DNA from: Nymphaea colorata
Taxonomy: Eukaryota; Streptophyta; Magnoliopsida; Nymphaeales; Nymphaeaceae
Direction: 5' to 3'
Assembly (NCBI RefSeq): GCF_008831285.2
Contig: NC_045139.1
Span: 30,111,206 to 30,175,205 of the forward strand
DNA: 64,000 bases
In this document: piece by piece, positions 1,339-58,587 of the stretch
Numbering within the stretch: position 1 is the first letter of the stretch
Layout: every line of letters begins with the position of its first letter
Program-made: the position numbers and the translations under genes
The notes under the pieces: model-generated
Database searches by the model: none
What the model was told of the DNA's origin: nothing
Seen by the model: only the letters and a program-made list of their open reading frames with translations

Positions 1339-1845
1339 TCAAGTTAGAGAGCTGATGTCAATCTGCCCCAACTTGCTAGTTATCCATTGATGTTGCTTCT
1401 TTCGTAGAGCTTTAGTAAATATATCTGTCAATTGATGTTGGGTACCAACATAAGGAGTACATATTGTTTTGTTTTGGATTTTTTCACGAATAAAGTGACA
1501 ATCAATCTCGATATGCTTAGTTCGTTCATAGAACACTGGATTTGCACCAATATAAATGGCTGCCATGTTGTCGCACATGAGATTCATGGGTTTCTCAATT
1601 TTGATTATCATATCCAGAAGAAGCGCTTTGACCCACACAAGTTCACTGACACATGTTGCCATAGCTTTATATTCAGCCTCTACACTAGATCTAGCCACCA
1701 CATTTTGTTTTTTGCTTTTCCATGTGACAAGGTTACCTCCCACGATAGTACAAAATTCGGTGGTTGATCTTTTATCACTCTGATCTCCAACCCAATATGC
1801 ATCTGTGTATCCGACCACTTCAAGGTTGTTATTTCTTTTCATCAA
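1339..1845 (-). pseudogene. copia element 1 RNase H fragment
   Basis: A 168-codon open stretch encodes the copia RNase H domain: YTDAYWVGDQSDKRSTTEFC, then SSVEAEYKAMA, then the RTKHIEIDCHFIREKI block and the C-terminal TDIFTKAL. It runs to the natural stop of the polyprotein just before the polypurine tract. Upstream it is separated from the reverse transcriptase piece by a frameshift, so it is not expressed as a full polyprotein. Confidence 0.85.
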
Positions 1846-1848
1846 AAT

Positions 1849-6090: not shown

Positions 6091-6103
6091 TGCTCTGATA
6101 TCA
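6091..6103 (-). other. primer-binding site of copia element 1
   Basis: In element orientation TGATATCAGAGCA, immediately inside the 5' LTR. The copia consensus complementary to initiator Met-tRNA is TGGTATCAGAGC, so only one base differs. It fixes the inner edge of the 5' LTR at 6104. Confidence 0.82.
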
Positions 6104-6364
6104 TATCAAGAAATGAAGAAATAAGGGCAATCTCACACCACACAAGGGTTAACGTGGTTCGGCCATTACTGCCTACATCCACGGGTGAACTATTTTTGCT
6201 TTTCTTTCACTCTCATCTTTTTGTTTTGGTTCACATTTCAAACATATAGTGAAGTGAACGATTGAATACAACAGGGAAGAAAAATAATAAAAGAAACAAA
6301 TCTTCTGCAGAAGAGGAAAGTATGATAACTTTCCTCATGCCACAAGCTAGCCATTGCCTCAACA
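6104..6364 (-). repeat. 5' LTR of copia element 1
   Basis: 261 bp, the longer of the two LTRs. It is bounded inside by the primer-binding site and outside by the CAAAT duplication at 6365-6369. Begins TGTTGAGGCAATGGC in element orientation. Confidence 0.88.
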
Positions 6365-9906: not shown

Positions 9907-9915
9907 CGTATGAGT

Positions 9916-11370: not shown

Positions 11371-11493
11371 TCCCGAATCCGGATACCAATTATCGTCCCC
11401 TACTTGCTGGTTGTGAGAATTTCCAATTGAAGAGTGATAGGCTTGAGGACTCGATCCAAAGTTAGGTCGTTTTTCTTTGAGAAGATTGGTATA

Positions 11494-13599: not shown

Positions 13600-13959
13600 T
13601 GATTCTTTTATATAGATTGGTAATAACTATCATGGTTGGTGGCGGAGCTCATGTTCAAACATTTAAACAGTCAAAATGTTAGATTGCAAGTTAACTTCAG
13701 AATTTTCCTCGTCCGTAGAAGTGTCGGACTCAGCAAACTCGGCTTCTAGAAAAGTTCATCGCTGTCAAAATGTCCTCATTTCTAGGCTTGTCCGTGGAAA
13801 AGTTTCCGCAGGTAAAAGACAAGATGTTTGAAGTAGCGATAAAGTAGCTTGATCTCCAAGTCTGCAGCCTAGATATAGACGAGGCCTTCAACACGAGAGG
13901 CCAAGTGTAGCAGATCTTCAGAAGCAAAAGAAAAGCTCTTAATTTCCTAGAAACACAAA
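13600..13959 (+). promoter_or_regulatory. promoter and 5' UTR of second tau GST gene
   Basis: Aligns with the region before the first GST gene. Compared with it, about 94 bp are inserted (13680-13773), and the insert is bracketed by a 10-bp direct repeat GTCAAAATGT at 13670-13679 and 13764-13773. The TATA box of the first copy is altered here to TAGATATAGA near 13870. The leader AAGTGTAGCAGATCTTCAGAAGC is conserved. Confidence 0.6.
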
Positions 13960-14824
13960 ATGGGCAGCGACGATGTTGTTCTCTATGGCACGTGGAGTAG
14001 CTTTTTCGTTGACAGAGTGAAATGGGCTCTGAAAATGAAGGGGGTGGAGTACCAGTACGTTGAAGAAGACCTGTTGAACAAGAGCCCCATGTTGCTGCAG
14101 TACAACCCAGTCTACAAGAAGGTCCCGGTGTTCGTGCATGCCGGAAACCCGATAGCGGAGTCGACTGTGATCCTCCAATACATCGACGAAGTATGGCCGC
14201 AGAATCCAATCATGCCCGAGGATCCCTATGACAGAGCCATGGCCAGGTTCTGGGCCAAGTTTATTGATGAAAAGGTACGCAAAATTTAGTAATCTTATCT
14301 TATTCCAAAGTTGATTCTGTCTAGATTAATTTGATGCAAGTTATTCGGGGTATACCAATTCACACATAGCAAGAATCTAATGGTTGGCTTTCCTTTGTTT
14401 CTACCAAAGTATACCAATTCCCACATAGCAAGAATCTAATGGTTGGTTTTCTTTTGTTTTTACCAAGTGTAAGGAAGCTGTGTGGGCCGCAATTAGCCCT
14501 TTTACAGATGAGCCAGGGAAGAACATAGAGCCTGCTCTGGCAGCTCTTGAGGTGCTGGATGATCATCTGAGAGGCCGGAAATTCTTTTCCGGCGACACCA
14601 TTGGATACACCGACTTAGTTGCCGGGTGGATCCCTCGATGGATGGCGGCGATGGAAGAGTTTGCAGGCACGAAGCTGCTTGATCCTCAAAGATTCCCATC
14701 CCTTCACGCTTGGGCCTGCAAGTTTCTCGAGGTTCCGATCATCAGGGACAGCCAAGCGCCTCATGACAAGCTTGTTGAACGCATAAAGGAATACAGGAAG
14801 TTGCATTTGGCTAAGTTAAAGTGA
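13960..14824 (+). CDS. tau-class glutathione S-transferase, copy 2 (2 exons)
   Basis: Exons 13960-14274 and 14468-14824 join in phase 0 and give 223 aa. The donor is GTACGC at 14275 and the acceptor ends at 14467. The predicted role is the same as for the copy at 294: cytosolic glutathione conjugation. The start [20 protein letters not shown] keeps the catalytic serine, but the next residue is phenylalanine where most GSTUs have proline. The ES glutathione motif ([15 protein letters not shown]) and the tau helical domain ([28 protein letters not shown]) are intact. The intron is 193 bp against 113 bp in the other copy; most of the difference is a 59-bp tandem duplication that ends at the acceptor. 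The C-terminus (LHLAKLK) differs from copy 1 (IYLAKCACS). Confidence 0.94.
14350..14467 (+). repeat. 59-bp tandem duplication in GST copy 2 intron
   Basis: Units 14350-14408 and 14409-14467 both run from GTATACCAATT to TTACCAAG/CTACCAAA. The second unit supplies the acceptor TTTTTACCAAG used at 14467. The first unit ends CTACCAAA, with A in place of the final G, so it has lost the acceptor at that point. GST copy 1 has a single unit (about 662-721). Confidence 0.9.
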
Positions 14825-17271: not shown

Positions 17272-19020
17272 TTACCAATAATCTTTACAAGAACATTGTC
17301 CTTGTTTGAAGTGATGAAATCGAACTCGATCCCTTACTGTAATTACTCTACTGTAAACACGAGATAGGAGTTTGATCACTGAATGACAGTCACCACAGAC
17401 TCGAAGATTTTTTATAACACGAAGAGGCTGGTTATCAGACGTCTGAAGAATGCCAAAGGCAATGGCAAGCCTTTCGCTGTGGAGGCCAAGTGCATTTTCC
17501 TTCTCTTCCTCATCGATATCATGTAACACGTCTGCTGTGGTAGCAACATAACCCTCACTCTTTAGTTTCACGTTCATCTTGTCAAGCATTTCATAGATCT
17601 CTGCAGTATGGGGGTGGGATTCATCTCCCATGACAAATTCATGAAAAGTGTTATTAAGTTCTATCATGCTGTAGCCGTGCTCTTTTTCGGCCTTCCTTTT
17701 CTTCATCAACCCTCTCACTCTAGTTACATCAGACCATCTACCTGAAGAAGCATATACGTTCGAAACGAGCACATAATTATCACCACCATGAGGATCCAGC
17801 TCAAGGAGATGCTTTGATATGCAACTGCTGAGCTCAACATCTCCATGGATCCTGCAACAATTAAGCAATGCCCGCCAAAGGACTTCGTTAGGCTTTATCG
17901 GCATGCTCATGATGAAGTCATAGGCTTCCTGCGTTTGCCCAGCACGGCAAAGCAAATCCACCATGCACCCATAATGCTCAATCTGGGGAGCAATTCCATA
18001 CTTTCTTGACATGCTGTCAAAATGGAACTTACCCTCCTCGAGCAATCCAGAATGACTGCAAGCAAATAACACGCTTGTGAAAGTAACACAGTTCGGTCTA
18101 AGATTTGATCTTTTCATTTGGGCGAAAATTTCAAGAGCCCTTTCACCAAGTCCATGAATGGCCAGACCACCTATCATGGAAGACCATGCCAAGGCATCCT
18201 TCTCAGGCATATTATTAAAGACCTTCAGCGCTTCAGCCAATCCACCACACTTGCTGTACATATCCACCAGCGAGGTGCCAAGAACAACATCAACAGGCAC
18301 ATCATGCTTGTCAATATAGGCATGAACCCACCTGCCCAAGTCCAAAGAGCCAAGCTGTGCACACGCACCCAAAACGCTAGCCAAGGTGAAGCCATCGACT
18401 TCCATGGAGCTGCGTTGCATCTCTCTGAAGAGCGCCAAGGCATCCCTGGGCATTCCATTCTGGGAATAGCCCGCAATCACTGTGCTCCAAGACGCGGGAT
18501 CCCTCTCAGCCATTTCATCAAATATTTTGCGTGCCTCGTCCAACCGTCCACAGGCGACCGCCCACTTCAAAATTCCATTGGCAACAGCCAAATCCGAGTC
18601 CAACCCCATCTTCAATACCTGCGCACGAATCTCGTTCCCCTCTACCACTCTCACCAGTCGACCACACACTTTCAGAACAAAGGCGGCCGTGAACGAATTC
18701 CCTCGGAGGCCAGAACCATGGATTCTCCTATACAAACTAATGGCGCAAATTGCTGAATTGCTTCTCGAGTAACCCTGAAGCATGGTGTTGTAAACGAAGA
18801 GATTGGGATTGGGCATCCGCGAGAAGACCAGGTGGGCATAGTCCATATGTCCCGAGAACGAGACTGCGGAGGCTTGCAGAAGCTTGCTCGCCAGAAAACC
18901 ATCTTGGTCGAGTCCCTCTCGGATCAAGAGGGCGTGAAGGGACTTCAGGCTTAAAATAGAAGAGCACCTCCTGATCAGAGACGAAAACAAGCTCCTTCGT
19001 TGCTCAACGACGCTTTGCAT
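17272..19020 (-). CDS. PPR protein, PLS class with E and DYW domains
   Basis: One uninterrupted frame of 582 codons. The ATG at 19020 starts MQSVVEQRRSLFSSLIRRC, and a basic N-terminus is consistent with import into an organelle. PPR motifs fill about residues 70-390 (for example NLFVYNTMLQGYSRSN, DPASWSTVIAGYSQNGMP, DALAWSSMIGGLAIHG, NCVTFTSVLFACSHSGLLEEG), then the E region (NEVLWRALLNCCRIHG) and a full DYW domain ending CSCKDYW. The DYW deaminase-like signature is complete: HSE at 514-516 and CGDC at 542-545. Proteins of this class act as site-specific C-to-U RNA editing factors in mitochondria or plastids; the target cannot be inferred. It has no introns, as is typical. The number of PPR repeats is on the short side for the class. 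Confidence 0.95.
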   Translation of the reverse strand: MQSVVEQRRSLFSSLIRRCSSILSLKSLHALLIREGLDQDGFLASKLLQASAVSFSGHMDYAHLVFSRMPNPNLFVYNTMLQGYSRSNSAICAISLYRRIHGSGLRGNSFTAAFVLKVCGRLVRVVEGNEIRAQVLKMGLDSDLAVANGILKWAVACGRLDEARKIFDEMAERDPASWSTVIAGYSQNGMPRDALALFREMQRSSMEVDGFTLASVLGACAQLGSLDLGRWVHAYIDKHDVPVDVVLGTSLVDMYSKCGGLAEALKVFNNMPEKDALAWSSMIGGLAIHGLGERALEIFAQMKRSNLRPNCVTFTSVLFACSHSGLLEEGKFHFDSMSRKYGIAPQIEHYGCMVDLLCRAGQTQEAYDFIMSMPIKPNEVLWRALLNCCRIHGDVELSSCISKHLLELDPHGGDNYVLVSNVYASSGRWSDVTRVRGLMKKRKAEKEHGYSMIELNNTFHEFVMGDESHPHTAEIYEMLDKMNVKLKSEGYVATTADVLHDIDEEEKENALGLHSERLAIAFGILQTSDNQPLRVIKNLRVCGDCHSVIKLLSRVYSRVITVRDRVRFHHFKQGQCSCKDYW

Positions 19021-21180: not shown

Positions 21181-21622
21181 CGTTTCTCTCCAATTTCATG
21201 ATTGTCATGTAAAAAGAATAGGGATATCCTACAAAATAAACATCAAGCCACTAACGATAAATAAAAAAAGTATTTTCTTGTCCAATCTAATTTTATAAAC
21301 ATGAACCTTAAGAGTGATTTGATAGAAATGATACTAATTTAGGATTGTAGACATTTTTGTATGTTTATATTTTCTTTGGATTAAATTATATTTATATTTT
21401 CTTTGGAACAATGTACCACGTATGTATTTTATACACATTTTATGCTCATCTTTCTTATTAGGAAGTACATAGAAATACATATTAGATCCAAGAACAGCGG
21501 TGCTGATTGTTGCAGAGAATTTCTTGGTGTTGGCCTCCATCGATAACGACGTCACTCACCCCAGGAAGGAGATCAAGAACAACAACTCTCTTTCGGGAGA
21601 AGAGGAAGAAGACGAAGTGAGG

Positions 21623-23755
21623 ATGAGACGTGGCATATGCGATAGCTCCACCGGAGAGTTGGACTCAAGCGGCTTCACCAAGCCGATGCCTCTGATCGGG
21701 CTCTACATTGCAGGAGCTACGATGCTCTGTTTCCTTCTCATGGCTGCCGACGTCTTCACGAGCTTCCGCGTTAGAATTTACTGGATCAGATGCAAACTGT
21801 TCGGACTGAACGCCACCACCATAGCTCTGCTCTCTGTTGCCACAAAATTGCCCGGAGATCTCAACACTTCAATGCCAGCGCCCTTAGACCAACTCACAAA
21901 AATTAGTGGAACAGTTCTCTTGTGCACCTCCATGGGTTTCAGCATGCAGAGTTTGGGAACAATGGAGGGTTTGGAGCTGCTCTCCAACGTAGTGGCTCTG
22001 TCAATCTTAGTAATCACAGTGTTCGTTAACATCTGCATTCAGATGAGAACCGGTGCCATCTTCGCCTATCTGCCTGAACACGTCATGGTTCTGTGCATAA
22101 TGCTACTCCTGCTCTTCATCATGGGCATTACTGCTGTGACCAAAACACTAATCAAGGAAGCCATTGAAGAAGAATTATCAGAAAAACGCCGGATTTTTGC
22201 TTCCCAGCATCCTACGTGTGATGCTACTGATCCCCAAGTAAAATTGGAGAACTGCAAGACCATGGTCTCTAAAGTGTGGATGACGACGCACACCAGCAAC
22301 CTGCAACATGCCACCAGCCACTTTATTGGTCCTACAGTTGAAGTACTTGCCCTCTTGAGTGCTGTTTTGCTGTTAGAAACAGGGGTCAAAGCTCTTCTCT
22401 TCTCCACGGGGAAGAAATCTCGGGATCTTGGTGCTTTCTGTAAGGGCGATTCTGATTATGGTTGGTCGATTCAGATAATATTGGCATCTCAGGGACTTAC
22501 AATTCTGTTGGCGAGCCTTGCTATCTCCATTCGGTTGTTCCACTTTGCCGCTTCTGTTAGAAACCCCACAGAATTTCTCAAAATTGAATCCCAAATTTGG
22601 CTATCGTATGCAATGGGCTTGCTTGGAGTGGCTGCAAGGATTCCACAGCACCATCTTCCACGGAAATGGAAAGGCGTCGACTGTGCATCCGTTGTTCGAC
22701 AATGGGCTTCGAACTCGATGGTCATTCTATGTCTTATCACACTCATGATGCTGAGGACGATGTCGACAGCCATATGCTTTGCGCTCAGCGTCGTCCATTT
22801 CTTGTTCAGATCATCACTTAATGGCTGCTTCAACAAAGCAAGAAGTAGAGATCAAGGAGAGGCTTCGACGACCACCAACCGGAGAACCGCGCTGGTAGAG
22901 TACATAGTCTATCCGCCACCAAAGCAACTTGGGTATTTGTCTGAGATCTTCAGCCAGCCAACGGACGCGTGGATAAGGAGCGGAAGCGACGCAGTCACTC
23001 GTAAAGCCACTCCCTTGCTCGAACTCCTGTTTTGCCTTGATGGGCATCAAGTAGATGACTGGCATCGCGAAGACCCTGTTTGGCTCCTTTTCAGGAAGCA
23101 CATCGACGAAGACGAAGGCTGCTGCGATCTGTTCCTGGCTTTTCTGGTTTACATCAGCAAAGCACTAGCGGCCACTGATGCACAAGAGCAATATCAATCA
23201 TCTTCCGAGGCAGAGAAGTTGGCGAGTGCAGTGAGGGGGTTTCGTAAGCTCCTCTGCTTTGCAGACAAGTTTGCTTTCATCAAGCAACAAACTCATGAGG
23301 CACCAAGGATTGCTGCAAAACTCATGTGGCGGCAAATGCAGGCCCGGAATTACAGTCCCCCCACGAGTTCCGCTAGCGCAATCAAGGACATGGTGGATGA
23401 AACTTTCGAATTGGTCGCCATTGAAATGTTTACATACGGCTTCAGCTTCAGAAAAGTTAAAAACAAGCTGGACAAAATGGGAGCAATTTTTGACATGCGG
23501 CCCCTGAGGGACCGCCGAGCACCTGCTGAATTGGTGGACTGGCTGAGGCCGAGGATTGCTTATATCTTGCTTCACTGCTGCTCCAACATCCTCAACCAGA
23601 TACAGAAACTGGGAGGAGGTGAATTCGAATTGCAGGAAGAAGATGTGAGGGAAGCAGCTGAGGTCTTGGGCATGATCCAGGGCCTCGACCAACATCTCCA
23701 TCCCTTGTTTCAAACAGTTTATAATCTCTCTGCAGGATCTGGCTCCCTGGTGTAA
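21623..23755 (+). CDS. plant multipass membrane protein, function unknown
   Basis: A single exon of 710 codons from the first in-frame ATG (21623) to TAA. The frame stays open upstream to about 21473 but has no earlier ATG, so 21623 is chosen. The N-terminal half has about eight hydrophobic segments, including MPLIGLYIAGATMLCFLLMA, ISGTVLLCTSMGFSM, LLSNVVALSILVITVFVNIC, VMVLCIMLLLLFIMGITAV, VEVLALLSAVLLLETGVKAL, IILASQGLTILLASLAIS and MVILCLITLMMLRTMSTAIC. The segment after the first helix (IYWIRCKLFGLNATTIALLS, KLPGDLNTSMPAPLDQLTKI) matches, from memory, a plant family annotated only as hypothetical membrane protein. The C-terminal 300 residues look soluble and helical, with acidic and basic stretches. 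No catalytic motif, transporter signature or named domain was recognised. Confidence 0.8.
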   Translation: MRRGICDSSTGELDSSGFTKPMPLIGLYIAGATMLCFLLMAADVFTSFRVRIYWIRCKLFGLNATTIALLSVATKLPGDLNTSMPAPLDQLTKISGTVLLCTSMGFSMQSLGTMEGLELLSNVVALSILVITVFVNICIQMRTGAIFAYLPEHVMVLCIMLLLLFIMGITAVTKTLIKEAIEEELSEKRRIFASQHPTCDATDPQVKLENCKTMVSKVWMTTHTSNLQHATSHFIGPTVEVLALLSAVLLLETGVKALLFSTGKKSRDLGAFCKGDSDYGWSIQIILASQGLTILLASLAISIRLFHFAASVRNPTEFLKIESQIWLSYAMGLLGVAARIPQHHLPRKWKGVDCASVVRQWASNSMVILCLITLMMLRTMSTAICFALSVVHFLFRSSLNGCFNKARSRDQGEASTTTNRRTALVEYIVYPPPKQLGYLSEIFSQPTDAWIRSGSDAVTRKATPLLELLFCLDGHQVDDWHREDPVWLLFRKHIDEDEGCCDLFLAFLVYISKALAATDAQEQYQSSSEAEKLASAVRGFRKLLCFADKFAFIKQQTHEAPRIAAKLMWRQMQARNYSPPTSSASAIKDMVDETFELVAIEMFTYGFSFRKVKNKLDKMGAIFDMRPLRDRRAPAELVDWLRPRIAYILLHCCSNILNQIQKLGGGEFELQEEDVREAAEVLGMIQGLDQHLHPLFQTVYNLSAGSGSLV

Positions 23756-27093: not shown

Positions 27094-43991
<16,898 letters not shown>

Positions 43992-44919
43992 CCTTGGGAG
44001 TTAAAACACCCCTCTAATCTCTCTGAAGTCTTCGTTATACTTATAGTAGCTTTTGGCCTGTAGTCTAAGAGAAGGTGAGGTCCTTTTTCTTTGATATTTT
44101 TGCCAGATAATATTTGTAAATCATCAGAGGACTCAATTCCAATCGGAATACTTCGTGTAATCATTTCATTCATTTTTCTTAAAGGTTATAAAATGAAAAC
44201 TCGATTCTTAGTCTTCTTCCCTATTAAGGCAGCAAATGGAAACCCTCTCCCTCCCTCCCTCCCCAACACACACAGCACAGGCAAGACAGTTGCGTATTTA
44301 GTTTGAGAGTTGCAGCAAACATGTGAAATCGATATCTAGGAAATCAGAATTTGGGATAAAAGATCGGCCTCACATGAAGGGAAGGGATTGTTGCAAGTGC
44401 AGGATGCGATTTTATGCCGTTTAACCGTTCCAGATGCTTCTACAGTAGGCGAACCGGCAAGCCAATTCTTTTACTATCCAAGCTGTTTTAATGGGGTTAA
44501 AGTTTATGCCTCTGCCTTTTCTTGATTCCGATGCCGCGCGAGCGTTTTCTGTTTCCCCCTTAGAGGTGCCAAGGAAACTTGTAAAAGACCAAATCCCCTG
44601 GTCTCACCTGACCACACTGGTAAAGCTCGGGACCCTAAGTTGCATCTTTGAAGAGCATCAATTCCATTCTCACTCATTAATTACATATAACCTTACCACA
44701 TGCTTTCGGTGGTTGTCCCATAAGTGATTAACCCACAAAAAGAAAAAAATGTCCACAACACATTCTAAGAATAATAACCAACTAATGATATCACCAGGCT
44801 TAGGAAACATCCTGTGAATTGCAACAACTTCAGAAAACAGTGGTTTGAGAGCGTCTAACAGTGTCCAAATGGGATAGAGGACAGGGCTTGCCAGTAGAGA
44901 GGCTTACAGTAATGATTCA
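43992..44919. other. 3' flank of the AAA gene and spacer
   Basis: 3' UTR and downstream region of the AAA gene up to the young copia element. It includes CTCCCTCCCTCCCTCC (about 44244-44260) and ACACACA simple sequence. No other gene was seen. Confidence 0.5.
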
Positions 44920-45324
44920 TGTTAAGAAATATGATTTCTTATTGTTGTTATCTCTTAATTAGGTATTATCTTAGTTAAGAGCTAGTTTAGGATTAGTTAG
45001 GAATTAGTTTAGGATTTAGTTTATTTCTTTCTTTTCTCTTTATTTTTTATTTTTTATTTTTTTATTTTTTTATTATTTCTGCCAAACTAGCCGTTGGCAG
45101 TTCCAACAGCTCTATTAAGAGCTGTTGGAACTAGCCCAACGGCTAGTTTAGCTCATCTCTTCTTATTCTCTCTTATAAATATCCTTGTAACAGTCTTTGT
45201 AAAGGATAAGCTGTATTTTACAGCCTTTATATTGTTTATTGAATGAGTATTACTCTTCTTCACTTGGCCTTAGTGCCTTTTTGGTATTATATGTATTCTT
45301 TGTGACTGTTATAGTCACTTTTCA
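44920..45324 (+). repeat. 5' LTR of copia element 3
   Basis: 405 bp. It contains a TATAAATA box at 45174-45181, expected to start the genomic transcript, and a 66-bp near-perfect hairpin (45084-45149). It reads as identical to the 3' LTR. Confidence 0.95.
45084..45149. repeat. long inverted repeat (hairpin) in the LTR
   Basis: The arms AAACTAGCCGTTGG-CAGTTCC and its complement around GAGCTGTTGGAACTAGCCC, ending CGGCTAGTTT, pair over almost the whole length with a short loop at TCTATTAAGA. It sits about 25 bp upstream of the TATA box. The same hairpin is at 50003-50068 in the other LTR. Confidence 0.88.
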
Positions 45325-45326
45325 CA

Positions 45327-45337
45327 TGGTATCAGAG
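45327..45337 (+). other. primer-binding site of copia element 3
   Basis: TGGTATCAGAG, complementary to the 3' end of initiator Met-tRNA, the primer used by most copia elements. The twelfth base is A instead of the usual C. Confidence 0.9.
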
Positions 45338-45536
45338 ACATTGGGCTGATTCTCAAAGCTTGTTAAAGGCTGCTGCTGAGATTTTATGTTGCTGGTTTGA
45401 TTGAAGAGATTCTTTGCTGGAGGATATAATTTCTTGAAGGCCTTTTTGCTGCGGTTGCTCACCAACTGTTTGGTGAAATTTCTAGAAGAGTTTTTTCTTG
45501 ACTTCTTTGGAGATTATTGTTTCAAGTATTGCTCTC

Positions 45537-48500
45537 ATGGAAGACTCCAAAGTTTCAATTGAAGGAGGAAGCTATTATGCTCCATACAAGCTTGACGGAA
45601 CCAATTATACACTATGGGCAAAATGTTTGGAAATGCATATCAAAGGAAAATATTTATGGGGCTTCATAAGAGGTACGTCTATCCCTCCCACTCTCAAGTT
45701 GACCAAAATAGAAAATGGGATTGAAAAACAACTAGATGGAGTGGAAAGACAAAATGCTATGAATGAATATTACAAAAAATTAGACGATTGGGAAGCTAAA
45801 AATTCTAGGATTAAAGAATGGATTTATGGAAGTATTGAACTTAGAATTGCCCAAAATCTTATGTATTATGAAAAGGCTAGTGAAGTTTGGGAATATCTTA
45901 AGGGAATGTTCACCCAAAAAGATATGGCCCGAAAGTATCTTTTGATTCAAAAGGCCCAAAGTATCAAGCAAGGAGAGAAAAATGTTAGAGAATTTTTCAT
46001 GGAAATCTCTAGTGTATGGAATGAGTTAGATCAACTAAGTCCCGAACTAGGGTTGGACTGCAAATGCCATGAGATTAGAAGAAATGAAATAGATGAATTT
46101 CGGTTTTTTCAATTCCTTCAAGGGCTACGGCCCGAATTTGAACAAATAAGGTCAGCCCTTCTTTCTTCATCCTCTCCTCCACTCATTCATGAACTTCTTA
46201 CAAAGCTAAGTGGAGAGGAAACTAGAATGAAATTATCCAAAGAAATGGATAAAGATAGTGTTCTTGTCTCAAAACAAGAAGAAGAAAGAGCCTTAGCCGC
46301 CTCTAGACCTGGAAACAACATCAAGTCTTTTAGACCTCCTCACTTTAAGAATCAAATTAGAGGAGAATATAAAGTTATTTGCCACTTTTGTCATGAACCG
46401 GGTCACATAAGACCTAGTTGCCCAAAGTTGAACAACAATGAAGGACAATCGCGGAATCTTGGAGGAAATTTTCTCAAAGGAGGAACTTCATATCCACAAG
46501 GAGGGCAACACAACCGGGGAATTTCATTTCCTCAAGGTGGACATTACAACATTAGACAATTTGATCAAAGAAAGGCCGCAAATGTCACAAATGAAGGATG
46601 TGATCTATCATCTATATCCACAACGTTGAATCAAATCATGACAGCCCTTCAACCCATGATCAAGGAGTCAAATTCCGGAGCACTAGCAACAACGGCATCC
46701 ATCTCCAACACTCCTGGTATGTTTTCTTGGCTTTTAGATTCTGGTGCATCTTTTCATATGACACCAAATATATCATCTTTGACCAAATTTGAAAGAACAA
46801 GAAAAGAATCAAATGTTGTTACCGCCGATGGAACTTCTTTAAGTGTTAAAGGGATTGGGAATTTTGAAAAAGAATTTGGAAAACAAAAATTTTTTGTTCC
46901 AAAAGTTAGTTATGTTCCTAAACTTAATCTTAACTTACTTTCTGTGTCACAAATCTCAGATCTTGGATTTGATGTTGTTTTCTCATCAAATAAATGTTTG
47001 GTGCAGGATCACCAAACCGGGAGATTGATTGGGGAAGGTTTTAGAAAAGGGGACCTTTACTACATGGACAATTTATGCATCCCCAAAGAAAAGTTTTGTC
47101 ACTATGTTGAAAATGTGGACATCAATGTTTGGCACCAAAGATTAGGTCATCCAAATGTTAGAAAATTGTCTATGATGAACCCTACCAAGAATATTTGTAT
47201 TGAAAATTTTAAATGTAATGATTGTATACATGGAAAAATGAAATCTTTATCTTTTGGAGAAAGGAACTTCTTCTCTTTTTTGCCTTTTGAGCTTGTTCAT
47301 TCCGATGTATGGGGACCCTCTCCTATCATGTCAAAAGGAGGGCTATCATATTATGTGATCTTTGTTGATGACTTCACTAGGTATTGTTGGATATATTTCC
47401 TAAAACATAAATCCGAAGTTTTTGAGATATTCAAAAATTTTCACATGTTAGTACAAACACAATTCAATGCTAAATTAAAAATTTTAAGGACTGATTCCGG
47501 AGGTGAATACATTTCAAATGAGTTCGAAAGATATTTGAAAAACTATGGGATAGTCCACCAAAAATCTTGTCCAAGAACACCTCAACAAAATGGACTTTCA
47601 GAAAGAAAACATAGGCACATAATTGAAACAACAAGAACCCTTCTTATTTCCAAAAATGTGCCTAAAAACTTTTGGGCTGAAACCGCACTTGCCTCTGTTT
47701 ATCTTATAAACAGAATGCCTTCAAAAGTTTTACATAATACCACTCCGTTTGAAAAATTATTCAAGTATGAACCCGATTTCAATAGACTTCGTATTTTTGG
47801 ATGCAAATGTTTTGTTCTTAATGACAAGGCTGATAAGCTAAGTTCAAAAGTTATTGAATGTGCTTTTATTGGTTATTCTGAAACCCAAAAAGGCTACAAA
47901 TGTTATGACTCAATTAAAGACAAGATCATTGTCTCAAGGAATGTAAGGTTTTGTGAAGATGAAAGTGGTTTTAAAAATTGTGGGGAGTCACAACACAATA
48001 ATGATTATTCCTTTTTATTTAAGTTCCTTTCTCAATGTGATGATGAAATGCATGATGGTGATGATAGCAACACTGGTGGTAATGATAGTAGAATGGCCAA
48101 GGATATAATCACTTATCATAGAAGAAACCGGCAACAAGAAGTTGGTGAAGAAGAACATCATGAGACCATTGATCTCCAACCAACTCATAGTGGAGAAAAC
48201 CTTAGGAGATCCACTAGAAATGTAAGACAACCCAATAGGTTTGTGTCTTATGAAACTTTTACTCCATCTCATAGAGCTAGAATTAATGCCATTCACTCTC
48301 ACTTTGAACCTTCTACTTTTAATGAAGCATCCAAATATATTGAGTGGAAGAATGCCATGTTAGAAGAATTGGATGCCTTGAGAAAAGCCCAAACTTGGGA
48401 AATACAAGATTTACCTATAGGGAAAAAGACTATTGGATGCAAGTGGGTATACAAGGTGAAAACTAAAAGTGATGGATCCCTAGAAAGGTATAAAGCAAGG

Positions 48501-49826
48501 CTTGTTGCCAAAGGTTACACTCAAGAATATGGTATTGACTATGAGGAAACATTTGCCCCTGTAGCTAGAATGACTACTGTTAGGACCCTTATTGCTTTAG
48601 CATCTGTTAAAAACTGGAATATCTATCAAATGGATGTTAAAAATGCCTTTTTAAATGGGGATCTTATGGAAGAGGTTTATATGGAAGTACCACCAGGGTT
48701 GTCTGTTCCTCAAAGGAAAGTTCTTAGACTTAAGAAGGCTCTTTATGGCCTCAAACAAGCTCCTAAAGCTTGGTTTGACCGTTTTAATTCTGTTATTTCT
48801 GATTATGGGTTTCATTCTTGCTTAACTGACACTGCCTTGTTTGTTAAGTATACTACTGCAGGTATCATAATTCTTCTACTGTATGTTGATGATATGATCA
48901 TTACAGGTAGTGATAAGGAAGGTATTAAAGAATGTAAGAAATTACTACAAGAAACTTTTGAAATGAAAGATTTAGGTTTTCTAACGTACTTCTTGGGTAT
49001 TGAGGTTGCATACTCTACTAGAGGATATTTTTTGTCACAAACTAAGTTTGCTGCAGAGATCATTGCTAAATCAGGCATAACAGATGATAAGGTCACAGAA
49101 ACTCCTGAAGCAGTAGGAAGCAAGATGAAGATTGATGATGGAGTTCCACTTGCCAATCCCACTCCTTACCGACAACTTGTGGGATCCTTGATGTACCTTA
49201 GCATCACTCGGCCTGACATTGCTCATGCAGTTCATACTGTGAGTCAATTTCAACATGCTCCATCAACCGTTCATATGGGAGCTGTTCTTCGTATCATCAG
49301 ATATATTAAGGGAACAATAAACAAGGGAGTATTTATGTCTTCCTCTTCCTCCTTGAACTTGATTGCTTATACTGATGCTGATTGGGGAGGAGATCCTAAT
49401 GATAGACACTCAACTACTGGATTTTGTGTTTTTCTAGGAGAATCACTCATCTCATGGAAATGCAAAAAGCAACAGAAAGTCTCACTATCCTCTACTGAAG
49501 CTGAATATCGAGCCATGGCTTCTACAACTATGGAAATTGTCTGGCTTCGCCAAATGCTCCTTGATATGGGAATAAAGATAGAAGAACCCACTGATTTATG
49601 CTGCGACAACAAGAGTTCTATCTACATTGCCAAGAATCAAACATTCCATGAACGAACAAAGCATATAGAAATGGACTGTCACTATGTTCGTGAAGAATTT
49701 TTGAAGAAGACTATCAAACTTCCATATGTCTCCTCCGAGTTCCAGCTGGCTGATTTCTTCACAAAGCCTCTATGTTCTCCCAGATTCAACTTTCTTTTAG
49801 ATAAACTTTCGGTGATAGCACCGTAA
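45537..49826 (+). CDS. copia gag-pol polyprotein, intact
   Basis: 1429 aa in one frame from the first ATG after the primer-binding site (MEDSKVSIEGGSYYAPYKLD) to a TAA just before the polypurine tract. In order: gag (LDGTNYTLWAKCLEMHIKG), a zinc knuckle CHFCHEPGHIRPSC (46380-46421), protease LLDSGASFHM (near 46733), GAG-pre-integrase VWHQRLGHPNVRKL, integrase with the DDE residues in HSDVWGPSP, LRTDSGGEY and QQNGLSERKHRHI, reverse transcriptase [13 protein letters not shown] with catalytic YVDD at 48882-48893, and RNase H (AYTDADWGGDPNDRHSTTGF, SSTEAEYRAMA, TKHIEMDCHYVREEF). No stop or frameshift breaks it. The gene makes the particle protein and the enzymes for copying and integrating the element. 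Gag and pol are in one frame, as usual for plant copia elements. Confidence 0.96.
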   Translation: MEDSKVSIEGGSYYAPYKLDGTNYTLWAKCLEMHIKGKYLWGFIRGTSIPPTLKLTKIENGIEKQLDGVERQNAMNEYYKKLDDWEAKNSRIKEWIYGSIELRIAQNLMYYEKASEVWEYLKGMFTQKDMARKYLLIQKAQSIKQGEKNVREFFMEISSVWNELDQLSPELGLDCKCHEIRRNEIDEFRFFQFLQGLRPEFEQIRSALLSSSSPPLIHELLTKLSGEETRMKLSKEMDKDSVLVSKQEEERALAASRPGNNIKSFRPPHFKNQIRGEYKVICHFCHEPGHIRPSCPKLNNNEGQSRNLGGNFLKGGTSYPQGGQHNRGISFPQGGHYNIRQFDQRKAANVTNEGCDLSSISTTLNQIMTALQPMIKESNSGALATTASISNTPGMFSWLLDSGASFHMTPNISSLTKFERTRKESNVVTADGTSLSVKGIGNFEKEFGKQKFFVPKVSYVPKLNLNLLSVSQISDLGFDVVFSSNKCLVQDHQTGRLIGEGFRKGDLYYMDNLCIPKEKFCHYVENVDINVWHQRLGHPNVRKLSMMNPTKNICIENFKCNDCIHGKMKSLSFGERNFFSFLPFELVHSDVWGPSPIMSKGGLSYYVIFVDDFTRYCWIYFLKHKSEVFEIFKNFHMLVQTQFNAKLKILRTDSGGEYISNEFERYLKNYGIVHQKSCPRTPQQNGLSERKHRHIIETTRTLLISKNVPKNFWAETALASVYLINRMPSKVLHNTTPFEKLFKYEPDFNRLRIFGCKCFVLNDKADKLSSKVIECAFIGYSETQKGYKCYDSIKDKIIVSRNVRFCEDESGFKNCGESQHNNDYSFLFKFLSQCDDEMHDGDDSNTGGNDSRMAKDIITYHRRNRQQEVGEEEHHETIDLQPTHSGENLRRSTRNVRQPNRFVSYETFTPSHRARINAIHSHFEPSTFNEASKYIEWKNAMLEELDALRKAQTWEIQDLPIGKKTIGCKWVYKVKTKSDGSLERYKARLVAKGYTQEYGIDYEETFAPVARMTTVRTLIALASVKNWNIYQMDVKNAFLNGDLMEEVYMEVPPGLSVPQRKVLRLKKALYGLKQAPKAWFDRFNSVISDYGFHSCLTDTALFVKYTTAGIIILLLYVDDMIITGSDKEGIKECKKLLQETFEMKDLGFLTYFLGIEVAYSTRGYFLSQTKFAAEIIAKSGITDDKVTETPEAVGSKMKIDDGVPLANPTPYRQLVGSLMYLSITRPDIAHAVHTVSQFQHAPSTVHMGAVLRIIRYIKGTINKGVFMSSSSSLNLIAYTDADWGGDPNDRHSTTGFCVFLGESLISWKCKKQQKVSLSSTEAEYRAMASTTMEIVWLRQMLLDMGIKIEEPTDLCCDNKSSIYIAKNQTFHERTKHIEMDCHYVREEFLKKTIKLPYVSSEFQLADFFTKPLCSPRFNFLLDKLSVIAP

Positions 49827-49830
49827 GTTT

Positions 49831-49838
49831 AAGGGGGG
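49831..49838 (+). other. polypurine tract of copia element 3
   Basis: AAGGGGGG immediately before the TG of the 3' LTR, the plus-strand primer of reverse transcription. Confidence 0.88.
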
Positions 49839-50243
49839 TGTTAAGAAATATGATTTCTTATTGTTGTTATCTCTTAATTAGGTATTATCTTAGTTAAGAG
49901 CTAGTTTAGGATTAGTTAGGAATTAGTTTAGGATTTAGTTTATTTCTTTCTTTTCTCTTTATTTTTTATTTTTTATTTTTTTATTTTTTTATTATTTCTG
50001 CCAAACTAGCCGTTGGCAGTTCCAACAGCTCTATTAAGAGCTGTTGGAACTAGCCCAACGGCTAGTTTAGCTCATCTCTTCTTATTCTCTCTTATAAATA
50101 TCCTTGTAACAGTCTTTGTAAAGGATAAGCTGTATTTTACAGCCTTTATATTGTTTATTGAATGAGTATTACTCTTCTTCACTTGGCCTTAGTGCCTTTT
50201 TGGTATTATATGTATTCTTTGTGACTGTTATAGTCACTTTTCA
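49839..50243 (+). repeat. 3' LTR of copia element 3
   Basis: 405 bp, read base for base the same as the 5' LTR, including the poly-T-rich stretch and the hairpin at 50003-50068. Confidence 0.95.
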
Positions 50244-50691
50244 TACGACCTCATATGGGTCTGCAAATTACATCAAAATAAGAGGTTCTTGATACGGTTT
50301 ACTTGTATAAGTTGAGAGCCAAAAAAAAAAAAAAATTTTTGAAAGTATTCCTTGCATTTGTCTTGTTGCATGAGCAGCTGGTTCAAAGTTTTCCCTTGCA
50401 AAAGATGAAACTTCTTTTTCTACGTTGAAATAGCCCGTCTACAATTACGAGTCTCTCAACCTAAACCGAAAAAGACTTAAAAGTCATATCAGTGTCGATT
50501 TGAAAATTATATATATATTTCCTAGTAAAAGCACATCCGCTCACTTTCTCTCTGATCCCAAATGCAGCCAAAACTTTTCATCTTCTAAACTCTTTCATTA
50601 ATAGATCTTTACAAACATCTACAGGGGGATCTAGCGGTAAATGGTGAATAATTACAATGGCAGAATTGAATATTGGAAACATCAAACCGTG
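50244..50691. other. spacer and 3' UTR of ABCF5
   Basis: Contains an A-run followed by T-run (about 50322-50340) and a short TATATATAT stretch. It includes the 3' UTR of the minus-strand ABCF gene. No gene was seen. Confidence 0.5.
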
Positions 50692-53600
50692 TTAGTTCCA
50701 TCTTTTCGCATTCTTTAGCCCTTTTGACTTTGCTTTTGCCTGCTGAAATGCCATCATTTTTTGCTTTTTCCTTGCTTCTTTTTCAGCCTGTGAATATTTC
50801 ATATAGTCATTGCAATGCATAGTTTACTTGTTGCAAGGGTTACTGGATCAGCAAATGTACCTTTGACATCTTAGATTTTGCCTTCACCTTTGGAGCCTTC
50901 TCCTCCAGCTCTGCTTCACGCTCGAGTTCCCTCTGTCTAGCCTCAAGGTTTTTCTCAAGGTAATACTGTAAAACAAATTATATATGACATCCTTTTGATA
51001 ATGGTGTGAAACAAAGCATTATGGTGCATGAAGCAGCAATCTTACTGTAGGAACAGAACAAATGAGAAACATATTGAGCATACACACACACACACAAAAC
51101 ATCAGGCAGGAACTACCATATGTGTAATTAGTGGTCCCAATAAGGCTGAGAAATATTGTGGAAAAGACCACTTAGTTCTAACCAAAATTTAACCATTCCA
51201 AGAGTTTCTCCACTTCAGTAGATTAAGGTTGAGATTCCTTCAATGAGATTTGTCTTTTAATTTCAAGTTTCAACATGTTCATTCCAAAAATATGTACAAC
51301 TGATGATTAAGATTATTCTAGTGCAATAGCTTGTGTGTGAACAAGTTCCAACATTCTTATCTAGAGTGAAAGGTTTCTTCACAAAAATGCACGTCACAGC
51401 TAGTCTGCCCATCAAGTGATCGCAAGAAAGGAGTTTATATTACTGTACTCTGAAAACAGTGCCAAGTTGTTGACAGTGGAACCTAGGTTATCTCCAGCAC
51501 TACAAGCATATATTCAGTATTATCCCACACAACATTTGACAAGGTCAATATTAGATTGGCAAACAGAATTGCGAAAGATTAGCTGGAAGCAGTAAAACAT
51601 TAACAATGGCTTCAATGCACTTACGTTATAATCCCCTGCATAGTCTTGAAGTTTTCCATCCTTCACCTCAATTACTCTATTAACTATCTGTCTTATAAAA
51701 TATCGATCATGAGAAACTGTAATAACAGTGCCCTTGTACTCTGTTATTGCCTCCTATAAAAACAGTTGGAAGATCAGAAAATTATGTTGCTTTATGCCCA
51801 GCAACCAAGTAAATAAGGAATAAAGAATAATGTGAAAAACGTTACAACGTTTACCTCAAGCATCTCCTTTGATGGTATGTCAAGATGATTGGTCGGTTCA
51901 TCTAAAACAAGCAAAGTTGATGGCTTCACCATAAACTTACAAAATGCAAGTCGTGCCTGAAAAGGCAAGGGCAAGAATAGATGTAAAGTATAGAAAACCC
52001 ACAGGATCAAGCTACAGAAAGGTGCAAACCAGGTATTGGGCCACCACTCATGTAGATAAACAATGATATCACTGATTGGACATTTGATTATACACCCAAG
52101 ATGACTTTTCAGAAGGGATTTCTCACACGTTTTTTCTAATCTCAAAAGTAACAATAGCTAGTGCTTCAGAAGGGATTACAAAATGCAAGTCGTGCCTAAA
52201 CTGACAAAGAAGATTTTCAAAATATGTTAAAGGAACGGAACAGGAAATGCATAAGTACACATCTGGAACTAAAGAAAAAGATATTAAGGTTGCAATGGAG
52301 GACATAGAGGTCATTTGAAATGGAGGATACAAAGGTCATAAGTAAAAATGACAAAGCCATACGGGAATTTCATGTAGTTACATGACCAAAACTAAAAATG
52401 ACCCGCAGTGGTATAGGATTAGTATGCCACACATTTCAAGCTAATCACTCAAGCGAACTTTGATGTTCAATCATCTCTCTCTCTCTCTCTATCACACACA
52501 CATAACAGAATTTGCAAGCTTTATGCTGAGACCAACATCACTAACCTTTTCGCCACCACTCAAGAAAGACACTTTTCTATCAAGCATGTCTGATTTGAAA
52601 TTACAACGACCAAGAAGCCCCTTTATATCATCAATTCTCCAGTCCTCAGCAACTTCTTCAACAGTCTCAAGCACTGTTTTCTCCAAGTCTAGAGCTTCTG
52701 CCTGATAAGGTTGTGACAAAAAAATTCAAGAATTAGATGCTTTTCACAATATGAGACAGGCCAAATGGTTATGTCCTCTTGGTGTTCAAGGTCATCTAAG
52801 CCTACTATTTATGTTGCATGTCAAACTGATGACTCGATGCAACTTAATTCACGAGAAAGCAAGCTAAACTCTCACGGCTTGATCTAGTTGAATGAGGTGC
52901 TGAACCATGTTTCCATGCAAGTTCTTTTTTTTTTGGCAATGTAATATTACCATTTGGCTTCCATGGAGATAGCTGATTCAGTTTTCCATTCTATGCCAAA
53001 TGCCGAAGCATAGTCCCAAAGAACTTGCCTTTTTCGAGAAAGACCCGATCAATGAAAATGAGAAAAACCTGTCTTTTTCCCCTTCTCTTAAAAAAACTCC
53101 ACAATGAATTTTTCACGTTTGCTTTTTGGCATTTTTTCACGCTTTGTTCTCATTATTCCATGTTACTTTTGCTTGAAAGTTTAAACTTAAGTTAAATTAT
53201 TTATCTTCATTTCTATCATTATTAAAGATATCATTTTCATTATTTTATCAACTTATTTTATGGTTTCTTGTTAGTTTTTCATTTTATTTTACCTTTTCTT
53301 AATTTTTAGGATTTTTTCTTTTTCTAAAAAAATTTGCCAAACTTTTTCCGAGACTTTCCTGAGATTCAGAAACTTCTCATCTAGTTGCAGGATAATCACT
53401 TTCTACACTGTCTTTCGGCACTAAACCTTGAAGTTTATTGGCAGTAGCAGATAAGTTTTGAACTTTTGATGCAATTACACAAGCTTTTATCATTTCATGC
53501 AATAAGAAAAATTACTGTTTCAGCCTGTCAATTATAGATCAGGTGTAAATAAAATCAAGTTATGACAATGGCCGTAGATACATAAAGCTTGTCAAGATAT

Positions 53601-56422
53601 TGATGATGCAGACGTCTGGAGAATGCTCTTCAATATGATATTAGATTATAATGAGCTTAAATGGTCAATAGAACAACTACGAATTACACAGCATAAACAA
53701 CACTAATTGATAGGACACAATACAAATAAAATCTTGCACAGCTTAAAATGCTATGTACCTGGTTCTGTTCAAAATAATTGGGCAGAACATTATGCTCCCC
53801 AATCAAAAGTTCACCGCCTTTTGGCTTCTCATAACCCATAATAAGTTTGAGCAACGTACTTTTTCCACATCCATTTGGACCGATTATAGCAATTTTCTCG
53901 CCCTTCTCAATAGAAATGCTTGCTTTATCAAACAGCAGCTAAACCATGAGACAAGAGTTGATTAGCAACACTATGCAAAGCTAGAACATTAGATATTATC
54001 TCAAGTTCACATATTTGCGTTGCAATATACAAAGACAGAGACCTTATCGTCATAGCCAAATTCTAGGCCCTTGATCGCTATGACAGATCTCCCACTTCTT
54101 CCCCGTTCAGGAAATCTGATTCTCATTTGTTTGCGCTGGAATGGCTTCTCAATCTGTTCTTCTTCTTGTAACTTCTCCAGTTTCTATCACAACATAAAAG
54201 AGAGTAAACAACTTCAATTGATGCTTCAGAAGGAGTTGGTAGATCAGATGAAATTTCTCCTCAGCAGAGATTAGCAGTAAAAGTTAAGGTAATACATCAT
54301 AACATAACATGGCAGCACAAAAGACTAAAAAGTTAAATTAGCATATGTTTATAGGTTTGAAGGTATATTTTCCTATATGATGAAATGTCTTCCAGAATAT
54401 TCCTTTTCAACTCCTGAGTACTTTCGTGTTCCAGATCAAAAGCTCCACCTGATGCACTATAAGAATGAAAGTCGGGTGACACTTGAGATCTCTAAAATGA
54501 AAAGTTTCTGCATAGTATTTGGTGTTTGTTCTCATTGAGGATTCCACGGAAAAGAGTGTCTTCTATTATTCCAATGAAAACAGCGGAATAGCTGATGCAG
54601 CCTTTCTTGCTACCGACAGTTGAAGACTGGCATAGCAACCAATAGTACCTTCCTTTGATGAATCAGTTACTGATATTCAAGAGAACAATTACAGCTGAAA
54701 ACTGCAGTTGTATCTTGAAAGCTTTGGCCATCAGTCTCCTTACTTTCAAGCTACTTCAACTGTTATCAACAGACTTTCCTGATTTCACCAGGGACCCCAT
54801 GAAGAGCGTGGAGGAAGTACACCATGTGTGAAATATGTGGAATGCGTTCCTTCTCCCAACGGAGAGTTCATGTTCGTACATGGTATATACCAATATGTAC
54901 GTTCTTTGTTTCTTTTGTTTTCCATTCCTTTATTACCCAAAGCGTATGTTGCTGAACTTGACACAACCTACCACAAGCACAGAAATAGACCTTGAAAAGG
55001 TGAAACAAATGGAGTTACCTTCTCTGCAGTTGATGCACGACCTGTATTAGCTCCACCACTCAATCGACTAATAATATCTTTTGTTTGCTCAATTTGCTTC
55101 TGCTGCTTTTCCCATGCCGCAAATTGGGTCTCTATCCATGCTTCTCTTGCTAGGATATACTGAGAATAATTTCCATCATAAGTCCTTGAAACTCCCATGT
55201 CTGTCTCCACAATCTTTGTGCACAGCTGATCAAGAAAAGCTCTGTCATGTGATATAACAACCATTGGTACATCTTGCTTCTGAAGGTAACCTTCCAACCA
55301 TTCTATCGTGTCGAGATCAAGGTGATTTGTGGGCTCATCCAAAAGAAGCAAATCAGGCTCCTGAAGCACCCAAAAAAAAAAAAAAAGAAGTCAAACGACG
55401 ACGTTATTTCAAAATAGTTTGTACAAAGCTAGCACTTATCAGCAAAAAGAAAAAGAAAGAAAAATAGCCAGCAGCTTAGACCAAAAGAGAAGGAAAGAAA
55501 AGCAGCAAAAGAAAGAAAGTACCTGGAGAAGAATCTTCCCCAGAGACATCCTCATCTGCCAACCACTACTAAATGAAGCAACTAATCTATCCGTGTCTTC
55601 GGGAGAGAACCCAAGCTCCGGCACCATCTTACTGATTTTCACGTCGACCTCATCGAGATCAACAGCATCTGCCCGCCTCTGAAGCAAGTCCAATTCATCC
55701 AAAAGCCTGCCCATCAATGCCAAATCATCCACCGCCTTTTCCAACGCCCTCTGTACCTTCTCAATCCTTTCCGCAATCTCCATTTCTTCCTTGAACGCAC
55801 TCATGAATTCTTCCTTCACCGTCCTACTAGGCGAGACCTCAAATTCCTGCGTCAAGAACGAGATTTTCATATTGGGCTTCGCCTTGATCAGGTACCCCGA
55901 ATCAGGCTCCTCTTCTCCCGCGATAATCTTCATTTGGGTCGTCTTCCCAGCACCATTAACCCCCACCAATCCCAGTTTCTCCCCCTTCTTCACCTCCCAA
56001 CTGACGTTCTTCAAGACTGTAACACCCTTAAAGCTCTTGCTGATGTTCTCTAACCTAACCCCAGACGAAATACTCGAAGCTCCACTCCCAACCTGCTTAT
56101 CTCTCTTCTTCGCCGACGTTTCCTTTTTTGAACTATCCGAAAACAGAGACTCTATATCCTCGACCTCTTCCTCTGTGGTGGTCGTCACTGTCTCCACGGC
56201 AACAGCCGAAAATCTAGGGCTTCTCGATCTAACGGAGAACTTCGATATCCTAGAAGCAATATCATCCTGAAATCTTAACCTAGTTTGAGCTAAAACAAGA
56301 CGTCGATTACAAGCAAACCTACGATTAAGGAATACCCTTCGACATTCTAGAAACTTGGTGTTAGCACAGAACAATGATTTTAGATCTACGCATGCGGGTT
56401 TGGAGGAAGAGACGATGTCCAT
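50692..56422 (-). CDS. ABCF5: ABC transporter F family protein, ABCF5 type (9 exons)
   Basis: Minus-strand exons: 55523-56422, 55019-55360, 54043-54183, 53759-53938, 52546-52701, 51855-51956, 51625-51753, 50861-50965, 50692-50787; all in phase 0, 2151 nt, 716 aa. ABCF proteins have two ABC ATPase domains and no membrane span; they work on ribosomes as translation factors (EF3/GCN20/Uup type). Residues 1-75 are basic and hydroxylated, like a plastid transit peptide. Domain 1: Walker A GVNGAGKT (154-161), signature FSSGWQMRM (284-292), Walker [14 protein letters not shown]-loop VISHDRAF. Domain 2: GPNGCGKS (481-488), LSGGEKARL (568-576), [19 protein letters not shown]. The C-terminal tail is charged and coiled-coil-like ([33 protein letters not shown]). 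The symbol rests on similarity recalled to Arabidopsis ABCF5 (692 aa). The domain 1 signature has Ser286 where the family has Gly. Confidence 0.93.
52176..52197 (-). repeat. 22-bp copy of the exon 6 splice junction inside ABCF5 intron 5
   Basis: Identical over 22 bases to 51937-51958, which spans the acceptor and first coding bases of exon 6 (GCACGACTTGCATTTTGTAA on the minus strand). The copy has its own TTTAG before the GCACGA, so it could act as a decoy acceptor; reading on from it reaches a stop after nine codons. Confidence 0.8.
53090..53400. repeat. dispersed AT-rich repeat in ABCF5 intron 4
   Basis: T-rich on the plus strand, with TTTTTAGGATTTTTTCTTTT and TTTTCCGAGACTTTCCTGAG. Its reverse complement resembles 36835-37100 in the AAA gene. 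No clear termini. Confidence 0.4.
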
Positions 56423-58587
56423 CGTCGTCCTCCCTCCGGTTCAGAAGGGGAAAACCACGAATTGTAAGGAAGAAACCCTCGAGGGTGAGGTAGAGCAGTA
56501 GAGACTCACGTTACTGCCGAAATGGAGAAAACCCAACGGAGCAGAAGGGATTCCAGGAAGAAACCTAGGGTTCTTGTAACAAAGTGAGATCGAAGGAACC
56601 TTCTCCCGCGAAGGATGAGTTGCAGAGGAAACTCCACCACCCGCTCTTTCTCTCCGCCATATATCAACGTTCAAAAGAGTAGGTAACACAAATACCCCTC
56701 CGTCCAATAAAACTTTCGTAGTTGCCATTCCTTTCTGAGAAAGTTATACCTTCGTCAGTATTAAACATGCGCGAAAATTGTTAAAATAAAGAATATTAAG
56801 GAAGAAAAACAAATTATATAATTGACAAAAAGGGTAACATGACATATTGAAAAATAATAAACTAAGTCTAATTAGATTTTAATTTATTAAGAAGGTAAAT
56901 AATATAACTAAGTCGAATTGTGTTTCAATTTCAGTAAATAAAAAAAAAGATTGTACATATATGAGGTCACTGTTTTTCTCTTCTTCTTTTTTCACCATTT
57001 GGGGAAGACCCAAATCTGAGATCCACTGTTATCCAATAATACATTGTTAATAAAGTGGAGGTTTCAAATTCTAAACGTAATTTTCTTCATGGATTTCTTC
57101 TGTTGAAATTCTAAAAAAGTAGTGCGTTTTTCTAGGTTCCTTGAAAAATTATATCCTTGAACGAAGTTCTTTGCTTTCATAAATGTAGCCCCCATCTTCA
57201 TCTATGACCACTAATAAAGCCATGCAAAACCCTATTCACAAATCTTTTTCCATAAATTGCAATGACTCCATGATCTCAATTCAAGTTTTTTGAAGTTTTC
57301 ATTTTCTCCCCTTTGTCATTAGTGTTGAACTGCTAATTTAAGTTTGTGTGTGCTTATTATATGTAATGTTTGTACCAATGTGTTTTGTGTACCTAAGATC
57401 AGAGATCTTTTAAGGATCTTTGAATTTGATATCTTGTGTAAGATCTAAGGTCTTTAACATATAAGTTGGATTGCTTAAAGGGACATAGCGTAACCAGGCG
57501 GCAAGATGGTTCACTTTTTAAGGGGTTTTAGGTTTGAATCTTACGTCAACTGTCACGTTCCAATGCATGATTCTTTTGGGCTGCAAATAGTAGCAAACAC
57601 AATTCTCGAGTTGATTGATGTACCACAAATTCACCTAACTCCTGAAACAAATCAAAACCTTAGAGGTATAAGGGTATGACCTTGTGGGTTTTACGTTAAA
57701 GGTAGTTTCTTCCAAGTAATATGGATTTAAAATCAATAGCTAACAAGAAATCTATCTCCAGAAATTTTGGATTTCAAATCTATGGTAACAGTGATGATAA
57801 TGCTTTTTAATCTACTTTGATTTTAGTGGACTCGCTGTTAAAGCCGGATCTCGCTCTCACTTTCATCAATAGATCTCAAGAAAATAAGAAATTAAGTGTC
57901 TGTTGTGCTTGAGGATTATGCTTTCACTCGATTAAGGGCCGAGCAGAAGCACTTTTCCTTTCTCCGGCTTCCAGGGTCTAAAGTTGTGTCGATACCTACA
58001 TTAAGTATGCATTTGCATTTTAATTATGTTATCCCTTTCTCTCCATAAGTGCAATTCTTAAGATGGGCAATTTGGTCATTTGGTAAAGACGGCGCTTTAT
58101 GCAGCCATGCGTATTTTGCATGGCTGGTTCTTGGCCAACATGATTGGGAATTTCTGGAGATAAATAAATTGTGGTGGCGAGAGGAGAAGAGGGATTTCAT
58201 CGAACACTTGGAGCCCATCGTGTGGTCCCTGTGATCATGAGGCTCAAACAATCCCTCAGTTTTGCGGCAGCTTCTGTCCCGGGACAAAATATCGCGGACT
58301 CGTTAGGTGAGTGACGCCCTCACGTATGTCATATCTAACCCCGTTTGATTCAACGGGGAACAAATCAAAGATGGCAAGCCAATCATCGGACGTTTATATT
58401 ATTTTATAATTCTTTTGTTTTTCATTTTAAATATTACAGGCTTAAAGTCTTTGGATGATCTTGTTCTTGTTATCCAAGTATGTCTTCGTTTCGAGATTTT
58501 CTTCCTTATATGGCGGCGCCCCTTGAAAATATGGGATAGTATTGATGCTTGATTTTTATTTTATGGTGAGATGGAGGGGTGAACAAC
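56423..58587. other. ABCF5 promoter region and spacer
   Basis: Next to ABCF5 is its 5' UTR and promoter (minus strand). A 95-codon open frame (ATG at 56728, stop at 56441) lies 18 bases before the ABCF5 start and would be an upstream ORF if transcription begins above it. A stretch at about 57478-57560 has weak similarity to tRNA-derived (SINE) promoter boxes. The rest shows no gene. Confidence 0.45.

Follow-up and report, generated by a model that had tools for sequence, protein, structure and literature searches.

A coding-intact Ty1/copia retrotransposon with identical LTRs and without a target site duplication in Nymphaea colorata

The 5.3-kb element at positions 44920 to 50243 (plus strand) of the window, i.e., the whole 64,000-nucleotide stretch of Nymphaea colorata DNA analyzed here, is a structurally complete, coding-intact plant LTR retrotransposon of a known kind, Ty1/copia. 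Its borders are the same as those of an initial annotation made from the sequence. Taken together, the evidence makes it highly probable that this is a full-length, probably autonomous copy from a recently mobile family and that a single textbook insertion did not produce the junctions now seen.

Element structure and coding capacity

The element is bounded by two 405-bp LTRs, at 44920 to 45324 and 49839 to 50243 (both plus strand), each starting with TG and ending with CA. The initial annotation had read them as identical and proposed their alignment as a check; a BLAST self-comparison gave 405/405 identical positions, and the repeat match ends at 405 bp. An LTR of 407 bp that takes in the following CA, with one end mismatch, was considered and is disfavored, as a 2-nt spacer is usual ahead of the primer-binding site (PBS) and the target site duplication (TSD) is missing under either choice of border. 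The sole TATA-like match within the LTR, TATAAAT at 45174 to 45180 (plus strand), is a putative TATA box. After the CA spacer, the PBS TGGTATCAGAG lies at 45327 to 45337 (plus strand) and is of the initiator-tRNA-Met type, agreeing with the consensus for that tRNA over 11 contiguous nucleotides and at 12/13 positions overall. The polypurine tract (PPT), read in the sequence as AAGGGGGG at 49831 to 49838 (plus strand), directly abuts the 3' LTR. Both priming sites are thus intact, as had been claimed.

A single gag-pol frame occupies 45537 to 49826 (plus strand), from the ATG at 45537 to the stop codon at 49824 to 49826. Its 1,429 codons contain no internal stop, so the unbroken frame of the initial annotation is confirmed, and they encode gag, a zinc knuckle, protease, integrase, reverse transcriptase (RT), and RNase H. 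Seven of the eight Pfam families listed for the polyprotein score above the cutoff (PF14223 and PF14244, both gag, gag_pre-integrs, Pol_BBD, rve, SH3_retrovirus, and RVT_2), the eighth being a zinc-finger model below it, and their order is that of Ty1/copia. No RNase H model is among these Pfam matches; the protease and RNase H are assigned by motif. By residue number, the zinc knuckle lies at 282, the protease DSGA at 401, the HHCC motif at 533, the D-D-35-E catalytic residues of integrase at D590, D653, and E689 (with a 35-residue gap between the last two), the YVDD motif of RT at 1116, and the motifs of RNase H at 1279, 1319, and 1356. The order is therefore gag, protease, integrase, RT, and RNase H, with integrase (533 to 689) ahead of RT. 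The closest solved structure is 7z0h (E value of 1.3e-19), the Ty1 integrase, and all nine listed structure matches are integrases.

If the element works as this anatomy suggests, its RNA would start in the LTR downstream of the TATA box at 45174, and gag-pol would be translated as a single polyprotein. Initiator tRNA-Met at 45327 and the PPT at 49831 to 49838 would prime reverse transcription, and the integrase would insert the cDNA. Four upstream ATGs, opening frames of 4 to 20 codons, lie between the putative start site and the start of gag.

Domain order, the single open reading frame, TG/CA ends, a tRNA-Met-type PBS, a PPT, and a size of 5.3 kb are all shared with the tRNA-Met-primed angiosperm Ty1/copia lineages (Pseudoviridae; REXdb Ale, Alesia, Angela, Ikeros, Ivana, SIRE, and Tork), from which the present element differs in having no TSD. 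In a comparison confined to the PBS, the agreement with the complete tRNA-Met type argues against the Bianca and TAR lineages, whose PBS features are not found here. Bianca carries a half-tRNA-Ile PBS, and TAR is predicted to be self-priming (PMC6317226).

Other repeats and genes in the window

Two further copia elements, at about 1360 to 5470 and at 8291 to 11391 (both minus strand, by homology), had been described as badly broken, and they are: the first has 10 in-frame stops over six tblastn stretches and the second has 5 over two stretches, and both show frame changes. Over these eight stretches the remnants are only 21 to 48% identical to the polyprotein and hence belong to different families. 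The first remnant is bracketed by direct repeats at 1131 to 1309 and 6104 to 6303 with an identity of 94% over aligned columns and of 84% by BLAST; these are probably its LTRs, and a PBS-like sequence can be seen by eye near 6092 to 6103. A longer direct repeat, 95 to 1070 and 13767 to 14816, was rejected as an LTR pair. Both copies contain glutathione S-transferase domains, pointing to a tandem gene duplication. The duplicates are about 89% identical in aligned columns and enclose the two broken copia remnants.

Elsewhere, the window contains a PPR-DYW gene at 17275 to 19020, which points to a land-plant host, a 760-codon open frame, measured stop to stop, at 21473 to 23752 (plus strand) with no Pfam match up to an E value of 1, and clusters of short direct repeats of about 125 to 290 bp, 84 to 90% identical, at 29247 to 31949. 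Scans of the window for tRNAs and Rfam families returned no matches. Pattern searches for relatives of the polyprotein gave 11 matching stretches in viral contigs and 24 in prokaryote contigs, none of which was confirmed, as expected for a plant element.

Absence of a target site duplication

A TSD is a mark of insertion, not of sequence family. At the expected positions, the 5' flank reads ATTCA (44915 to 44919, plus strand) and the 3' flank reads TACGA (50244 to 50248, plus strand), with 1/5 bases in common. No TSD of 4 to 6 bp is present at the element borders, where flank identity is 2/4, 1/5, and 1/6, a point that the initial annotation did not mention. When each border was moved by as much as 3 bases in either direction (49 combinations), no 5-mer pair did better than 4/5 positions, and both members of that pair lie partly inside the element. 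For comparison, 20,000 random pairs of 5-mers drawn from the window agree at 3/5 or more positions in 12% of cases and at 4/5 or more in 2%. The sole exact repeat of at least 5 bp near the borders, TTCAT, was also rejected as a TSD: its 3' copy overlaps the end of the LTR by four of five bases, and its 5' copy extends into the element by one base. Nothing outside the element is therefore duplicated.

How unusual this is can be judged in part from published surveys. Among wheat full-length candidates, 80 to 88% have a TSD with up to 2 mismatches accepted, and one centromeric family has it in 64%, for which inter-element recombination was the suggested reason (PMC9744471). A plant survey of 13,566 elements found a 5-bp TSD in 93.4%, a figure that yields no rate of absence since the TSD was a search criterion (PMC6317226). 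A minority of full-length plant elements thus also lack a TSD, and the Ty1/copia assignment stands. Nevertheless, a single textbook insertion is unsupported: it would not leave the junctions now seen. The LTR pair may stem from more than one insertion event, which weakens LTR dating. Recombination between elements, aberrant integration, and an assembly join all become real possibilities; the likeliest causes are recombination of two near-identical copies and integration with loss or misrepair of the target.

In the first of these two, ectopic recombination would have joined the 5' and 3' halves of two copies at different sites, and the flanks and LTRs would differ in origin. We regard this as a plausible but tentative reading, on a par with aberrant integration. 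It would explain why the TG/CA ends are exact at both LTRs and the TSD is nonetheless missing, and it has precedent: "intact elements without TSDs" are named as a product of unequal recombination (PMC7251063), in line with the proposal for the TSD-poor wheat family. LTR dating would no longer be valid after an event of this kind (PMC2672092). Against it, LTRs from two older insertions should differ, whereas these are identical, and two nearly identical donors would be required. Moreover, the window contains no second family member, and its sole other LTR match is a weak one (55 bp, 75% identity, E value of 0.002) at 36927 to 36981.

Equally tentative is a single true insertion with a deletion at the target or misrepair of the TSD. 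LTR identity and the intact frame are compatible with one recent event, and the surroundings fit as well. The element sits between an AAA-ATPase gene upstream (plus strand) and an ABC-F gene downstream (minus strand). The former has Pfam AAA matches in frames 40478 to 40651 and 41527 to 41727, and its putative last frame, 43878 to 43988, was assigned by eye without an AAA match and ends at 43988. The latter matches ABC_tran at 55442 to 56440 and ABC-F structures at 51795 to 52157; its putative last frame, 50695 to 50823, was likewise assigned by eye and ends at 50695. The element would thus lie about 0.9 kb and about 0.45 kb past the ends of two convergent genes, and both flanks, as the 3' sides of those genes, are compatible with a single, unremarkable intergenic region of about 1.4 kb. 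A minus-strand frame at 44673 to 44903 was considered as a gene cut at the 5' flank and was rejected, with Pfam giving no match up to an E value of 1 and the PDB none up to 5. TSD formation is cited as error-prone (PMC9744471), but 4/5 positions differ here, more than the 2 mismatches accepted in that study.

Long identical repeats are prone to misjoins. If contigs had been linked through a repeat of this kind, or if a different family member had been used to close a gap, the sequence would look the same, again with the TSD missing. The window contains no N, however, and we consider an assembly artifact less likely than either recombination or aberrant integration.

LTR identity and age

The zero differences over 405 bp would still be 5% probable at 0.53 million years (My) for a rate of 7e-9 substitutions per site per year and, if a slow rate of 2.5e-9 is assumed, at 1.48 My. 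For the faster rates of 1.5e-8 and 1.3e-8 quoted in PMC7251063, the corresponding ages are 0.25 and 0.28 My. The element had been called very young. This is probable given the LTRs, though the bound is softer than claimed: LTR identity points to an age probably under about 0.25 to 0.5 My at rates of 1.5e-8 to 0.7e-8, and not to a family that is active now. Likewise, the claim that identical LTRs mean little or no time since insertion holds insofar as the copy appears young; with the TSD missing, the LTRs alone cannot date its arrival at this site.

A second, weaker bound comes from the gag-pol frame and is independent of conversion between the LTRs. Of the 12,861 possible single changes in the frame, 682 would create a stop codon, and none is present. 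Under a model with equal rates and no selection, the chance that the frame is still stop-free falls to 5% after about 1.0 My at 1.3e-8 and after 5.3 My at 2.5e-9. This bears on a further explanation, an older element with LTRs homogenized by gene conversion and a TSD lost since. Potential conversion has been predicted for 25% of plant LTR pairs (PMC7251063). The intact 1,429-codon frame speaks against an older element, albeit weakly at slow rates, and we find this explanation unlikely. A recently mobile family is the preferred reading, with mobility most likely within the last few hundred thousand years.

A hairpin with MYB-type motifs in U3

Within U3 of the 5' LTR, 45081 to 45152 (plus strand) forms a near-perfect hairpin with a stem of about 30 bp and a 4-nt loop, repeated at 50000 to 50071 in the 3' LTR and not mentioned in the initial annotation. 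Folded as RNA, it reaches −53.6 kcal/mol (z score of −11.7), a value equaled in 0/200 shuffles; as DNA, it reaches −34.6 (z score of −12.4). Among 6,392 plus-strand windows of 81 nt taken in steps of 10, the two copies are the two lowest folds, the next being −42.9. Searches with patterns of this hairpin gave no match in viral contigs or in prokaryotic genome contigs, a result uninformative as to copy number in plants.

The hairpin includes four CNGTTR MYB cores, which are two independent cores doubled by the palindrome; in the window as a whole the motif is not enriched (179 found versus 192 expected). The consensus of the mitotic MSA element is YCYAACGGYYA, 11 bases long. It has one full match in the hairpin, at 45135 to 45145, while on the opposite arm the AACGG core is present in reverse orientation, without the full consensus; CCGTTGG-type sites lie on both arms in opposite orientation. 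The window contains three matches to YCYAACGGYYA, whereas the shuffles predict 0.12; two of the three are the hairpin site, once in each LTR. As this motif was chosen after the sequence had been seen, the excess is only suggestive, and the hairpin with its MYB/MSA-type sites is only a lead. In the literature, the AACGG core could be found in print but the letters of the 11-base consensus could not, and a search on narrow terms for MSA sites in LTRs, which is no proof of absence, returned nothing. AACGG cores near start sites are known to vary in number and orientation (PMC10905365, PMC8964727).

One could imagine the LTR as a cell-cycle-timed promoter, in which an MSA-type MYB3R palindrome would drive transcription in dividing cells at G2/M, when access to the nucleus would be easiest. 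The full MSA-type site and the second AACGG core would then precede the start site suggested by the TATA box by about 70 and 115 bp, and in the genomic RNA the palindrome would fold as a hairpin close to the 3' end. We hold such a role to be very improbable.

The LTR of the tomato copia element Rider, at about 398 bp, is similar in length to the present 405 bp, and the MYB motif of tobacco Tto1 differs from those found here. Rider has the MYB motifs CTGTTG and CTGTTA in its LTR, and the Tto1 LTR is under MYB control by NtMYB2 (PMC6762207); MYB motifs and MYB control in copia LTRs are therefore already known. The present LTR shares both of these motifs with Rider, a likeness by description, while a hairpin is not part of the account of Rider consulted here. 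MYB control of the present LTR, as in Tto1, would be a prediction from motif matches.

Implications

The missing TSD counsels caution, in that LTR identity alone does not mean that an element has just inserted where it is found. The mitotic MYB-type palindrome would matter for the element only if its expression proved to be cell-cycle dependent. As a coding-intact copy with identical LTRs, the element may reasonably be regarded as a candidate from which new insertions and markers could arise in its host.
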